A stretch of 45,625 bases of DNA from a virus. Below are positions 7,997 to 34,483 of the stretch, one piece after another; position 1 is the stretch's first letter; each line of letters starts with the position of its first letter. A program made the position numbers and the translations under genes. The notes beneath the pieces were generated by a model, which saw only the letters and a program-made list of their open reading frames with translations, was not told the DNA's origin and did no database searches. The stretch lies in the IMG/VR virus record IMGVR_UViG_3300046499_000264, positions 1 to 45,625 of that record; one strand, 5' to 3'.

Positions 7997-8069
7997 AGGG
8001 TGGTAGCTCGATTGGTAGAGCAACGGTCTCCAAAACCGTCGGTTGCAGGTTCAAGTCCTGTCCACTCTG
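7997..8069 (+). tRNA. tRNA-Trp (anticodon CCA)
   Basis: All arms fold. Acceptor AGGGTGG pairs with CCACTCT (one G-U), D-arm GCTC/GAGC, anticodon arm ACGGT-CTCCAAA-ACCGT with anticodon CCA, T-arm GCAGG-TTCAAGT-CCTGT. The discriminator is G8069 and the CCA end is not encoded. It lies between the hairpin-rich stretch and a terminator, upstream of the terminase genes. It presumably supplements host tRNA-Trp for UGG codons. Confidence 0.95.
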
Positions 8070-10522: not shown

Positions 10523-10548
10523 TAGAATGGATGGAGTGCTGTCCATTC
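10523..10548 (+). promoter_or_regulatory. promoter-in-hairpin element before portal
   Basis: TTGATAGAATGG with -10 box TAGAAT at 10523-10528. GAATGGA (10525-10531) pairs with TCCATTC (10542-10548), so the left arm overlaps the -10 box and the expected start (about 10535) falls in the loop. The ribosome site AGGAG lies downstream at 10562-10566. Confidence 0.55.
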
Positions 10549-12202: not shown

Positions 12203-12230
12203 AAATACCCATCACTGGCCTGCTGTTTAT
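12185..12230 (+). terminator. terminator overlapping the portal stop codon
   Basis: CAGCAGGCCA (12185-12194, inside the last codons) pairs with TGGCCTGCTG (12216-12225), 21-nt loop, followed by TTTATT. Ten perfect pairs but a long loop, so termination may be partial. Confidence 0.6.
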
Positions 12231-12257
12231 TCTCAGAGTGCCAGAAAACCAAACTGG

Positions 12258-12263
12258 TAATAT
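12258..12263 (+). promoter_or_regulatory. putative -10 box before the protease gene
   Basis: TAATAT at 12258-12263, in the context AAACTGGTAATATGGAATAG, resembles the other intergenic -10 elements (ACTGATAGAATGG). ATG 12288 has GGAG at 12277-12280. No matching hairpin of note is seen. Confidence 0.4.
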
Positions 12264-12287
12264 GGAATAGACGAATGGAGACTCCCA

Positions 12288-15003: not shown

Positions 15004-15013
15004 TCTGACCCAA

Positions 15014-15049
15014 GAAGCCCCGCCGGTGTTTATCGCCTGGCGGGGCTTC
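15014..15049 (+). terminator. hairpin terminator after major capsid gene
   Basis: GAAGCCCCGCC (15014-15024) pairs with GGCGGGGCTTC (15039-15049), 11 perfect pairs, loop 14 nt. The following TGCCATTTCC is a weak T-tract. Confidence 0.75.
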
Positions 15050-15078
15050 TGCCATTTCCGGCCAAATTCGGAATGCTG

Positions 15079-15111
15079 TACCATTGAATTGTGGTGCTAC
15101 TCCTCCGGTAG
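15079..15111 (+). promoter_or_regulatory. possible leaderless six-codon leader ORF between two terminators
   Basis: TACCAT at 15079-15084, six bases, then GTG 15091 opens a six-codon frame (GTG GTG CTA CTC CTC CGG TAG, 15091-15111). The spacing equals that of the leaderless starts. A strong terminator begins nine bases later at 15120. A short transcript of about 80 nt, or a leader/attenuator for the connector genes, is possible; the box itself is a poor match. Confidence 0.25.
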
Positions 15112-15119
15112 TGTGGTGG

Positions 15120-15169
15120 ACGGCCCCGGCTTTTATCGGTTGCTCCCCGGTAATAGCCGGGGCCGTTTT
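15120..15169 (+). terminator. rho-independent terminator before connector genes
   Basis: ACGGCCCCGGCT (15120-15131) pairs with AGCCGGGGCCGT (15155-15166), 12 perfect pairs around a 23-nt loop, ending in TTTTG. Together with the hairpin at 15014-15049 it forms a double terminator isolating capsid expression from the connectors. Confidence 0.85.
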
Positions 15170-15178
15170 GCATTCCGG

Positions 15179-15190
15179 TAGAATTGGTCT
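15179..15190 (+). promoter_or_regulatory. leaderless-type promoter of connector genes
   Basis: TAGAAT at 15179-15184, six bases, ATG 15191, with no ribosome site. It immediately follows the second terminator. It is the clearest of the leaderless examples because a perfect TAGAAT is present and no upstream transcript should reach it. Confidence 0.65.
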
Positions 15191-15628
15191 ATGGCTGAAG
15201 ACGCAAATCCCCTGGACCCAGAGACACCTGTTGGGCAGGTGCGTCTCCTCATTTCTGACACGCAGCTCCGGCGCGATCCGGGCAACCCTTCCGCACCGGC
15301 TGAGTATTACTTCTCGGACGCATTCATCGGCGGCTACCTTTCCATGAATGCAGGAAATGTGTTTCATGCAGCGGCAGACGCAATTACCGCGCTGGCTGCA
15401 AATGAAGCGATGGTCTCGAAGAAAATCCGCAAGGAGAATCTGCAGACCGATGGCCCCGCCGTGGCCAACGCCATGCGCCTGCTCGCGCAGGACTTGCGCG
15501 CCCGAGGTAACCGGGTGCAGGAGGCCACGGACGCGGCTGACGGCACCTTCTTCATCGTGGACTTCTCTGACCCGGTGACGCCGTTCGATCAGTTCGAGGC
15601 AGCCAACGGAGGCTCGCTGTGGGGCTAG
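15191..15628 (+). CDS. head-tail connector/adaptor protein
   Basis: 145-aa helical protein. N-terminal VGQVRLLISDTQLRRDPG followed by YFSDAFIGGYLSMNAGNVFHAAADAITALAANEA is characteristic of the gp6/gp15-like adaptor family, in which a short acidic N-terminus is followed by helices that ring the portal. Located directly after the capsid gene, as usual. Leaderless-type start. Its 3' end overlaps the next gene by ten bases. Confidence 0.75.
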   Translation: MAEDANPLDPETPVGQVRLLISDTQLRRDPGNPSAPAEYYFSDAFIGGYLSMNAGNVFHAAADAITALAANEAMVSKKIRKENLQTDGPAVANAMRLLAQDLRARGNRVQEATDAADGTFFIVDFSDPVTPFDQFEAANGGSLWG

Positions 15629-18245: not shown

Positions 18246-18264
18246 TCCTTACTAGGTAGTTTGA

Positions 18265-18300
18265 TAGGATTGGCCCCATACCAAACAAGGTATGGGGCCA
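18265..18300 (+). promoter_or_regulatory. promoter-in-hairpin element before chaperone genes
   Basis: TTGATAGGATTGG with TAGGAT at 18265-18270. Directly after it TGGCCCCATACC (18271-18282) pairs with GGTATGGGGCCA (18289-18300): 12 perfect pairs, six-base loop, followed by CTACTATTTT. Read-through RNA would form a full terminator-like hairpin; RNA starting near 18277 would keep only part of the left arm. The ribosome site AGGAG is at 18312-18316. Confidence 0.6.
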
Positions 18301-18320
18301 CTACTATTTTCAGGAGCACC

Positions 18321-19079: not shown

Positions 19080-19534
19080 CTTGGCCGCAGAACCGCGAGT
19101 GCGTCTCGATGGTTCTGACGGCCAAGGAATGGGGCTGGTCACCAACGGCAGTCATCCGGCAGGCGAAAGACCCGCGCAAGCCTCACCCGGCTGACTACAA
19201 CTTCGCACACGCGGTGGAAACGCTGCTGGAGGAGAAATGCCCCAAGTGCGGTGTGCCCATCTGGTACGCCTTCTCCACCAACTCGGAGATTGCTTTCAAG
19301 CTGAAGTCGATCACCTGCCAAGGTTGCCTGCATAAGGAAACCGAGACCAAGGATCAGGAACTGAAGCCGGGCGAGTCCCATGTGGTGTACGCAGTCCCCG
19401 CCGATGCCGAAGACGACCCGGAGGCCAAGCTTCCCCCGCGCAGTGACTACTTCGAGCGGGCAGCCAAGGAACATGCGGCTGAGCATGAGCGGCTAATGAA
19501 GCGCCGGGCCAAGGCCGAAGCACAGCAGCAGTAA
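18321..19534 (+). CDS. tail assembly chaperone fusion by -1 frameshift (GT-like)
   Basis: Slipping at 19061-19067 joins the first frame to the downstream frame through DFFVKALTWPQNRECVSMVL. The downstream part adds about 155 residues with a probable zinc site, EKCPKCGV and TCQGC about 30 residues apart, and a charged helical tail ending AEAQQQ. The ratio of short to fused product is normally important for tail assembly. A separate start at ATG 19109 exists in the downstream frame but has no ribosome site, so expression by frameshifting is preferred. The zinc-type insertion is unusual among chaperones I know. Confidence 0.82.
19061..19067 (+). promoter_or_regulatory. -1 programmed frameshift site TTTTTTG
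   Basis: Zero frame reads GAT TTT TTG TCA AAG CCC TGA. The heptamer T-TTT-TTG follows the X-XXY-YYZ rule and permits both tRNAs to slip back one base. The stop of the zero frame comes three codons later, and the -1 frame is open to 19534. Confidence 0.88.
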
Positions 19535-19537
19535 GTG

Positions 19538-19582
19538 AAGCACCAATCCCCACATCTGTAGGGATTGGTGCTTTACTCTTTT
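19538..19582 (+). terminator. rho-independent terminator after chaperone genes
   Basis: AAGCACCAATCCC (19538-19550) pairs with GGGATTGGTGCTT (19561-19573): 13 perfect pairs, 10-nt loop. TACTCTTTTT follows. Confidence 0.88.
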
Positions 19583-31693: not shown

Positions 31694-32281
31694 ATGGGAA
31701 ACGTAAACGCAGCAGGCATCTGGACACCGGATGAGGATGACAACCTCGACCCCGAGGTGTGGTCCCAGGCGATGGCTGACTCCATCATGAACGGCATCGG
31801 GGAACGCCTCAAAAGGCAGGAGCGGTACGAGGGTGCCTACCTGAACATCCAAGACCCCTTCACCCTGACGGCGGGCGATCCCGGCCACGCGCAGGTGCCG
31901 CTGCCGTTCATCGTGGGGCAGGGCGTCAACTACCTCGAAGGGGACATGACCCTTGCCGGCGGCGTCCTGAAGGTGGCGCACGAGGGGCTGTACCAAGTCA
32001 ACGCAACGATTGCGGCCTACATCGGTGACATGGCTGAGAATGAGTACCTGGAGCTGACCCTGTGGCAGAACGGCAGCCGCCACAAGCAGGTCGAAATCTT
32101 TGACGACAACACCGGCCACCCTCTGACCCTCGACTGCGCCACCACCATGCGCTGTGTGCCGGGCGACACCATCTGGGCCTCCGGCTGCCAGTATTTCGGC
32201 AACTACGACAACCCGCCGACGCTGAATGTGAACTTCTCACTGTTCAACACCCTCACGGTCACGCTCATTCAGGCATTCTAG
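31694..32281 (+). CDS. minor tail protein with C1q/TNF-like head
   Basis: 195 aa. After an acidic helical N-terminus (PDEDDNLDPEVWSQAMADSI, RLKRQERYEG) the C-terminal about 130 residues follow a jelly-roll pattern: LNIQDPFTLTAGDPG, GVLKVAHEGLYQVNATIA, YLELTLWQNGSRHKQV, VPGDTIWASGCQY, LTVTLIQAF. That matches the trimeric C1q/TNF-like domains used as phage receptor-binding heads. It is the last tail gene and the most likely host-range determinant, by fold resemblance and position. AAGAAGGGCACC precedes the ATG. Confidence 0.68.
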   Translation: MGNVNAAGIWTPDEDDNLDPEVWSQAMADSIMNGIGERLKRQERYEGAYLNIQDPFTLTAGDPGHAQVPLPFIVGQGVNYLEGDMTLAGGVLKVAHEGLYQVNATIAAYIGDMAENEYLELTLWQNGSRHKQVEIFDDNTGHPLTLDCATTMRCVPGDTIWASGCQYFGNYDNPPTLNVNFSLFNTLTVTLIQAF

Positions 32282-32289
32282 AGCCCTGA

Positions 32290-32345
32290 ATATGTCTCCC
32301 TGTAGAATTGGTGTTTAGATACACCTTTTCTACAGGAAGACATAT
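32290..32345 (+). promoter_or_regulatory. 56-bp imperfect palindrome: promoter in left arm, ribosome site in right arm
   Basis: Left arm 32290-32314 and right arm 32321-32345 pair at 22 of 25 positions around TTAGAT. The -10 box TAGAAT (32303-32308) is in the left arm; a start seven bases after it is 32315, the first loop base. The ribosome site AGGAAG (32334-32339) of the gene at 32349 is in the right arm. Read-through RNA from tail genes would hide the ribosome site; RNA from the local promoter would not. Phage T4 lysozyme gene e is controlled in this way. Confidence 0.7.
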
Positions 32346-32348
32346 CTC

Positions 32349-32849
32349 ATGCCCCGAATTACACCGCCGCTCTGGCTCTCCCGGGGACTCACACAGCTAC
32401 GCACCACGCTCCCCTCGGTCTACGGGCCGAGGGGTTTGGTGATGCTCGGGCAGGCCGCACTGGCAGGGTGCTTCGGTCTCGCCTACATCGGTGTCCTGAA
32501 CACGCCGCCCATGCCGGGCGTCCAGCTGGCAACGCTGTTCATGCCGCTGCAGCTGTGGGGAGTCCTCTGGTTCCTCTGCGCTTCGCATCTCATCACCGCC
32601 GCCTTCAAGGTGGACCAGTCCAAGGCCCTCGGCTGGATCACAGCCCTGCTCTTTTTCTGGGCACTGTCCTACCTGCATTACTGGTTCACCACCCCCGTCC
32701 TGCCGGGCGGCTATGACAACCTCGCGTATCTCTCCTCGGCCATGCTGGGCTCGATGGTGCTGAACGCCGTTGGCATCGCCCGGATGCTCAACCCCGGTCC
32801 TGTCCACCTTGAAGTGGTCGAGAAGCCGGGTGACAGCGATGTGGAATGA
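32349..32849 (+). CDS. four-span membrane protein of the lysis region
   Basis: 166 aa with about four hydrophobic segments: LVMLGQAALAGCFGLAYIGV, LATLFMPLQLWGVLWFLCA, ALGWITALLFFWALSYLHY and LAYLSSAMLGSMVLNAVGIA. Short acidic tail ending PGDSDVE. It is the first gene after the tail operon and has its own promoter within a long palindrome that also covers its ribosome site. A holin or holin regulator is plausible given the position, but similar membrane proteins of unknown role are common in these phages. Confidence 0.6.
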   Translation: MPRITPPLWLSRGLTQLRTTLPSVYGPRGLVMLGQAALAGCFGLAYIGVLNTPPMPGVQLATLFMPLQLWGVLWFLCASHLITAAFKVDQSKALGWITALLFFWALSYLHYWFTTPVLPGGYDNLAYLSSAMLGSMVLNAVGIARMLNPGPVHLEVVEKPGDSDVE

Positions 32850-34411: not shown

Positions 34412-34443
34412 CACGTCCCCTGCTTACTAATTTACTGTCTTGA

Positions 34444-34483
34444 TAGAATGGGCTACAGACCTACACAGGTTTGTAGCCCATTC
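34444..34483 (+). promoter_or_regulatory. promoter-in-hairpin element after lysis genes
   Basis: CTTGATAGAATGGG with TAGAAT at 34444-34449. GAATGGGCTACAGACCT (34446-34462) pairs with AGGTTTGTAGCCCATTC (34467-34483): 17 pairs, one G-U, loop ACAC. The -10 box lies in the left arm. RNA starting near 34456 would keep only the inner part of the stem. AGGAG at 34492-34496 serves ATG 34503. Confidence 0.65.

Follow-up and report, generated by a model that had tools for sequence, protein, structure and literature searches.

Between the last tail gene and the lysis region of an uncultured, Arthrobacter-type phage lies a long palindrome whose arms contain a putative promoter element on one side and the putative ribosome-binding site of the next gene on the other, which raises the question of whether this junction can tell RNA that has run through from the tail genes from RNA that begins within it. 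The phage is represented by an IMG/VR record of 45,625 nucleotides (the window, i.e., the whole stretch of DNA analysed), and its nearest isolates are distant Arthrobacter phages. The late region on the + strand follows the ordinary siphovirus order (terminase, portal, protease, decoration, capsid, tail tube, chaperones, tape measure, and tail proteins) and continues with genes for a membrane protein, a single-span protein, a LysM-domain amidase, and a small membrane protein. Rfam yields one match at gathering score, a + strand tRNA gene (7997–8069) that precedes terminase, and none at the hairpin. The features of the junction are the following:

31694–32281, + strand: last tail-region gene (phrog_21944), presumed source of read-through RNA
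32290–32314, + strand: left arm ATATGTCTCCCTGTAGAATTGGTGT, from palindrome and fold; holds the -10 hexamer and is missing from RNA begun at 32315
32303–32308, + strand: putative -10 hexamer TAGAAT with TGG after it, an arrangement shared with other promoters of the window phage; a -35 element was considered and dropped, no match being present
32315, + strand: predicted transcription start; it is the seventh base past the hexamer, opens the loop, and was calibrated with leaderless cap-g6 junctions
32315–32320, + strand: loop TTAGAT, from palindrome and fold
32321–32345, + strand: right arm ACACCTTTTCTACAGGAAGACATAT, present in short RNA as well as in read-through RNA
32334–32339, + strand: AGGAAG, putative ribosome-binding site in the right arm, 9 nt before the ATG
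32349–32849, + strand: membrane protein gene (166 aa, phrog_4026, ATG at 32349), proposed target of the hairpin

The hairpin between the tail genes and the lysis region

Across the two 25-nt arms, 22 of 25 positions are paired, the exceptions being U-U, U-U, and C-A. With an ungapped palindrome score of 17.5, the hairpin ranks first in the whole 45.6-kb window; the next score is 15.0, and ranks two to five are held by two terminator-like hairpins and two sister cassettes. The predicted fold of RNA 32270–32380 reaches −43.8 kcal/mol, compared with −22.0 ± 3.2 for shuffled sequences (z −6.84), and none of 200 shuffles folds as well. An earlier sequence-only reading of this DNA had described the arm pair and its pairing, TAGAAT, the beginning of the loop, and AGGAAG in the right arm in just this way, and all of its coordinates check. 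It had also described the downstream gene as a four-span membrane gene; at the cut-off used, a hydropathy scan returns two clear spans only, four remaining plausible. Since the PHROG label of this gene is minor tail protein, a role in lysis is not established for it. Used as a direct query against IMG/VR, the membrane protein gave no match, and it is missing in 13 of 13 capsid relatives checked; the cassette was therefore traced via the tail genes. In cultured Arthrobacter phages with homologs of the membrane gene (Korravirus, Wollypog), neither a comparable intergenic gap nor a match to the cassette model was found, and the genome contigs searched gave no match either.

A putative promoter within the left arm

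The predicted start was calibrated on the genes that follow the capsid (cap-g6), exemplified in the window by one promoter:

15175–15191, + strand: leaderless calibration promoter, TAGAAT-6 nt-ATG

At cap-g6 junctions, the ATG falls exactly on the seventh base past the hexamer in seven contigs (spacing 0) and one base later in three (spacing 1), and the stretch between hexamer and ATG is constant in length and divergent in sequence, i.e., conserved more in the former than in the latter. Because this leaves no room for a ribosome site, the cap-g6 genes are most likely leaderless, and the start would therefore be set at the hexamer end plus seven, which is 32315 for the hexamer at 32303–32308. 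TAGAAT occurs at + strand gene junctions at 10523, 15179, 19611, 25168, 32303, and 34444, and most of these copies read TTGATAGAATtGG, an extended -10 with a G past the hexamer; in the window as in its relatives, most late junctions carry a member of a family of the form TGnTARRAT or TAGAATtGG. The same kind of element lies at or near the expected place in a set of 101 distinct junction sequences taken from the window, its IMG/VR relatives, and Amigo. The 32303 promoter does not have the usual extended -10 TG, its TG being one base too close, and this variant, CCTGTAGAATTG, also precedes a leaderless gene in the related contig L017. A start in the loop from a promoter nested in the left arm, as proposed in the earlier reading, is thus backed by leaderless relatives sharing the -10 family. 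As the promoter class of 32303 serves other late junctions too, neither late-specificity nor firing later than the tail promoters is supported for it, and the same holds true for an effect on the timing of lysis.

Two further recurrent elements were seen at promoters of this group. Late promoters at junctions of the window, L012, L017, L018, and L022 are repeatedly preceded by CTTACTA/TTTACT in some phages and by CCTGTAG in others (as a tandem in L017), sequences that may represent an activator site or a terminator tail. A promoter sequence resembling TAAATACCAAnTGATARAAT is shared by 12220–12285 and the portal-protease junctions of relatives, which suggests that bases upstream of the extended -10 are conserved.

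Predicted burial of the ribosome site in read-through RNA

In folding calculations, opening AGGAAG costs 14.0 kcal/mol in read-through RNA versus 3.3 kcal/mol in RNA beginning at 32315. The former value stays at about 14 kcal/mol regardless of the flanks chosen, and none of 1000 shuffles of the upstream sequence with the -10 kept attains it (mean 3.9, maximum 10.5). When the 5′ end is shifted along the sequence, the block is gone for every RNA beginning at 32302 or later, so the result is independent of the exact start position. The short RNA retains a weak local hairpin over AGGAAG, with a mean unpaired probability of about 0.15. This residual hairpin aside, the proposal that the site is hidden in read-through RNA only is supported by folding with controls.

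The preferred reading, to which a probability of roughly 0.6 is given, is a translational switch of the T4 gene e type that distinguishes read-through from promoter-born RNA. Tail-gene RNA carrying both arms would fold into the hairpin, in which 22 of 23 aligned pair positions are standard pairs, and the hairpin would bury AGGAAG and leave the first lysis-region gene poorly translated. From the TAGAAT promoter in the left arm, RNA would begin at 32315 in the loop; without the left arm it would form no hairpin, and ribosomes would load. Output of the lysis region would in this manner depend on its own promoter and no longer follow transcription of the tail genes. The hairpin, the -10 match, the calibrated start, the lost pairing of the short RNA, and the recurrence in relatives with partly compensatory changes come from sequence and computation; promoter activity, read-through RNA, the size of the effect on translation, and any delay of lysis are what we infer here. 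Of the interpretation offered in the sequence-only reading, the promoter nested in the arm, a start within the loop, and burial restricted to read-through RNA are supported, and the lysis role of the first gene and a late-specific promoter are not.

Relatives at the same position

Each of six related contigs (L028, L060, L063, L069, L030, and L029) carries a single copy of the cassette, placed 3′ of the last tail gene, and the genes that follow it are lysis-region genes partly unrelated to those of the window. From read-through to short RNA, the opening cost falls from 17.3 to 3.6 kcal/mol in L028, from 16.9 to 1.6 in L063, and from 11.8 to 2.8 in L060, of which L069 is a near-identical copy; the corresponding values are 9.2 and 5.0 in L029, and 5.8 and 3.0 in L030. 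Burial of the site is therefore strong in four contigs (L028, L060, L069, and L063) and weaker in two, being moderate in L029 and hardly present in L030. In an alignment of the window with L028, L060, and L063, 90% of cells are paired, as opposed to 39–69% with the partner slid, and two outer pairs have changed on both sides with pairing kept (U-A to G-U and A-U; G-C to U-A). On this four-sequence alignment alone covariation is modest, 43–45 of 500 shuffles equalling it, and the compensatory changes may be taken as supportive, not decisive, evidence for RNA pairing. The core of the hairpin, CCCTGTAGAATTGGTGTTTAGATACA, is nearly invariant in five contigs and could be a protein site instead. Retention of the design in relatives with changed sequences points to a real switch. 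Two other contigs, L027 and L065, feature an unrelated palindrome at the same place, with TGTTACTAT in the loop and a T-rich tail; it is placed ahead of the ribosome site, which lies outside it.

Leader ORFs of 8 or 14 codons are found at the ribosome site of the hairpin in four of the relatives:

Leader ORF locations: L028 (reverse complement) 7075; L060 10319; L063 9754; L030 (reverse complement) 6202
Leader ORF peptides: MNFALAGM, MNYRMAGM, MKYGMVAE, MLARQKTSITKADI

The first lysis-region gene has its ATG overlapping or directly adjoining the stop codon of the leader ORF, which suggests translational coupling between the two.

Sister cassettes at other late junctions

Promoters associated with hairpins are also present elsewhere in the late region of the window:

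18261–18307, + strand: tail tube-chaperone cassette with TTGATAGGAT promoter; hairpin begins within the -10, and its strong stem does not include the ribosome site
34440–34483, + strand: cassette after the holin-like gene, TTGATAGAAT, with hairpin GAATGGGCTACAGACCT/AGGTTTGTAGCCCATTC; GAAT of the -10 pairs with ATTC

At the tail tube-chaperone junction, hairpins beginning in or beside the -10 were found in eight phages and are largely unrelated in sequence; their stems have no sequence in common and were matched up by how far each position lies from the loop, not by MAFFT alignment. The post-holin junction resembles it in that the ribosome site lies outside the hairpin. Protease junctions have arms of the type CTCCGTTCGTCTAAAT/ATTTAGACGAACGGAG in L012, L021, and L024, and GTGTCTCCAAT/ATTGGAGACAC in L016 and L023; in both sets the -10 sits in the loop and the ribosome site is hidden and then freed in short RNA, the opening cost dropping from 14.7–16.5 to 0.9–2.9 kcal/mol. 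The portal junction of L038 shows the same design (14.1 to 3.2 kcal/mol). Given that promoters lie in hairpins also at junctions where the ribosome site is exposed, sequestration appears to be one use of a wider design, and the junctions suggest one topology with two uses, a translational block and a transcription stop.

A nested hairpin is clear in three of about nine promoters of the window. Base pairs across the start site, taken as a general statistic, are not raised in most junction families, folding being near chance at term-portal, tact-tmp, cap-g6, and most prot-dec junctions; a nested hairpin is therefore not claimed for all promoters. It may tentatively be proposed, at somewhat less than even odds, that in this phage group and in Amigo promoters nested in hairpins serve as a general insulator between late genes, the fold either stopping transcription or blocking translation. 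At many junctions, a -10 located in the left arm or the loop would have its start within the hairpin, leaving read-through RNA as the only RNA able to fold it, and the lysis cassette would be the translational version. Local promoters would then set gene-by-gene output within an otherwise continuous late operon.

Strong terminator-like hairpins are located at 15011–15060, 15111–15170, and 19534–19577, after capsid and chaperone genes; at 15111 and 19534, a promoter belonging to the -10 family described above comes next. One record among the relatives, IMGVR_UViG_3300049203_000084 (L009, L015), harbors two distinct capsid regions, with 85% and 74% identity to the window, and is presumably chimeric or misassembled.

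Alternative explanations

In the cultured phage Amigo, terminator-like versions of the hairpin with T tracts occur: that of the tail-chaperone junction (GGGAGTCTACTC..GAGTAGGCTCCCTTTTTCTATT) and a cassette at L056:22999 ending in CCATTTTCG both begin in or right after the extended -10. Together with the exposed ribosome site and T-rich tail of L027 and L065, these examples would fit a transcription insulator, in which the hairpin would serve chiefly to terminate or attenuate tail-gene RNA and the promoter in its left arm would let the cassette's own RNA escape. Such a role is unlikely at 32290, where the stem is AT-rich (36% GC), the right arm spans the ribosome site, and CTCATG rather than a T tract follows it. 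A GC-rich stem with an immediate T tract, the mark of an intrinsic terminator, is not found here, nor is a canonical terminator between the upstream tail gene and 32349; the sole match, a weak one, is the 5-pair inner stem of the hairpin itself, at the frequency seen in shuffled sequences.

The read-through helix might, on the other hand, be cut by a double-strand nuclease of the RNase III type, trimming the tail and lysis mRNA in the manner of phage T7 junctions, at which mRNA is trimmed by RNase III-type cleavage. A near-continuous helix of 22–23 pairs, conservation at the RNA level, and the G-U bias described below would suit such processing, which is nevertheless improbable: it gives no reason why the -10 should be part of the left arm, or why the start should fall within the loop, here and at other junctions, and several sister stems have only 11–13 pairs.

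Control at the DNA level, by an operator for a regulator or by a cruciform overlapping the promoter, would be in keeping with a palindrome that covers the -10 and with the near-invariant core in five contigs. On the sense strand, however, mismatches in strand-neutral palindromes are G-U 16 times and A-C 3 times (14:3 without near-duplicates, p 0.013), a bias that a DNA site would not give; it follows that the conserved object would be the sense RNA with both arms, i.e., the read-through RNA. This count is a fairer test than the loop-distance comparison of stems, which used hand-picked arms. The 32290 cassette taken alone lacks the strand bias (A-C type 2, G-U 1), but from one junction to another within a genome the arms have no sequence in common, and control of this kind is very improbable. 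Chance complementarity of the -10 and the ribosome site is scarcely credible, for although the two motifs constrain both arms and many other junction cassettes fold at chance level, the upstream shuffles never reproduced the block, the design recurs in relatives and, from unrelated sequence, elsewhere, and palindromes scoring at least 12 are present in 16 of 101 cassettes versus 1.1 expected.

Comparison with known systems

The translational switch favored here has counterparts outside this phage group. In the fold-back inhibition of IS10 and IS50 transposase, transcripts from outside fold over the ribosome site and the element's own transcript does not; there, the arrangement shields a transposon from outside promoters and does not concern a phage gene junction. 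In the available part of the source, a stable hairpin of unknown role is placed ahead of seg43 in Aeromonas phage 25, beside the ribosome site (PMC2988022). Being next to, not over, that site, it resembles the tail-chaperone and post-holin cassettes, and unlike for the cassettes of the window phage, a nested promoter is not described in that part (PMC2988022). Cluster K mycobacteriophages carry SAS/ESAS elements, whose inverted repeats immediately precede the start codons of several genes, and ESAS arms share a consensus (PMC3203893), whereas the arms of the window phage differ at every junction. The 13-bp start-site sequence GGGATAGGAGCCC of these phages was rejected as a candidate, its one match in the window (42151, two mismatches) being below chance expectation. 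The literature available contained no usable match for a comparable design in actinophages or for terminator/promoter pairs of phiC31.

The precedent invoked in the sequence-only reading, gene e (lysozyme) of phage T4, is an apt one: there, as also in soc, 49, and I-TevI, a hairpin in read-through RNA hides the ribosome site, and a promoter in the DNA of the hairpin's 5′ strand yields RNA lacking that strand (PMC3014915, PMC2988022). The 32290 cassette shares both structural traits at the level of sequence, with a ribosome site predicted to be paired and a putative promoter in the 5′ strand, and the controlled gene belongs to lysis in T4 and to the lysis region here. T4 late promoters, TATAAATA, need gp55 and split early from late, whereas the element at 32303 is TAGAAT, a member of a sigma-70-like -10 family; the T4 late promoter sequence, a T4-specific rather than mechanism-specific feature, is not present at that site. 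In contrast to gene e, whose translation from the long RNA drops about 100-fold, the upstream RNA at 32290 would itself come from late (tail) genes, which would make the switch a means of uncoupling, not of early/late timing. The window phage is, moreover, unrelated to T4, and the design recurs at several junctions. Since the same topology has been rebuilt from unrelated sequences, it should be possible to predict it from sequence and to test it in a relative that has been cultured (Amigo, with Arthrobacter as host). If true, these cassettes would extend the mechanism known from T4 lysozyme to actinobacterial siphophages unrelated to T4, where it would act at several junctions within a single operon, and they would offer a simple rule by which genes of a polycistronic unit can be insulated.
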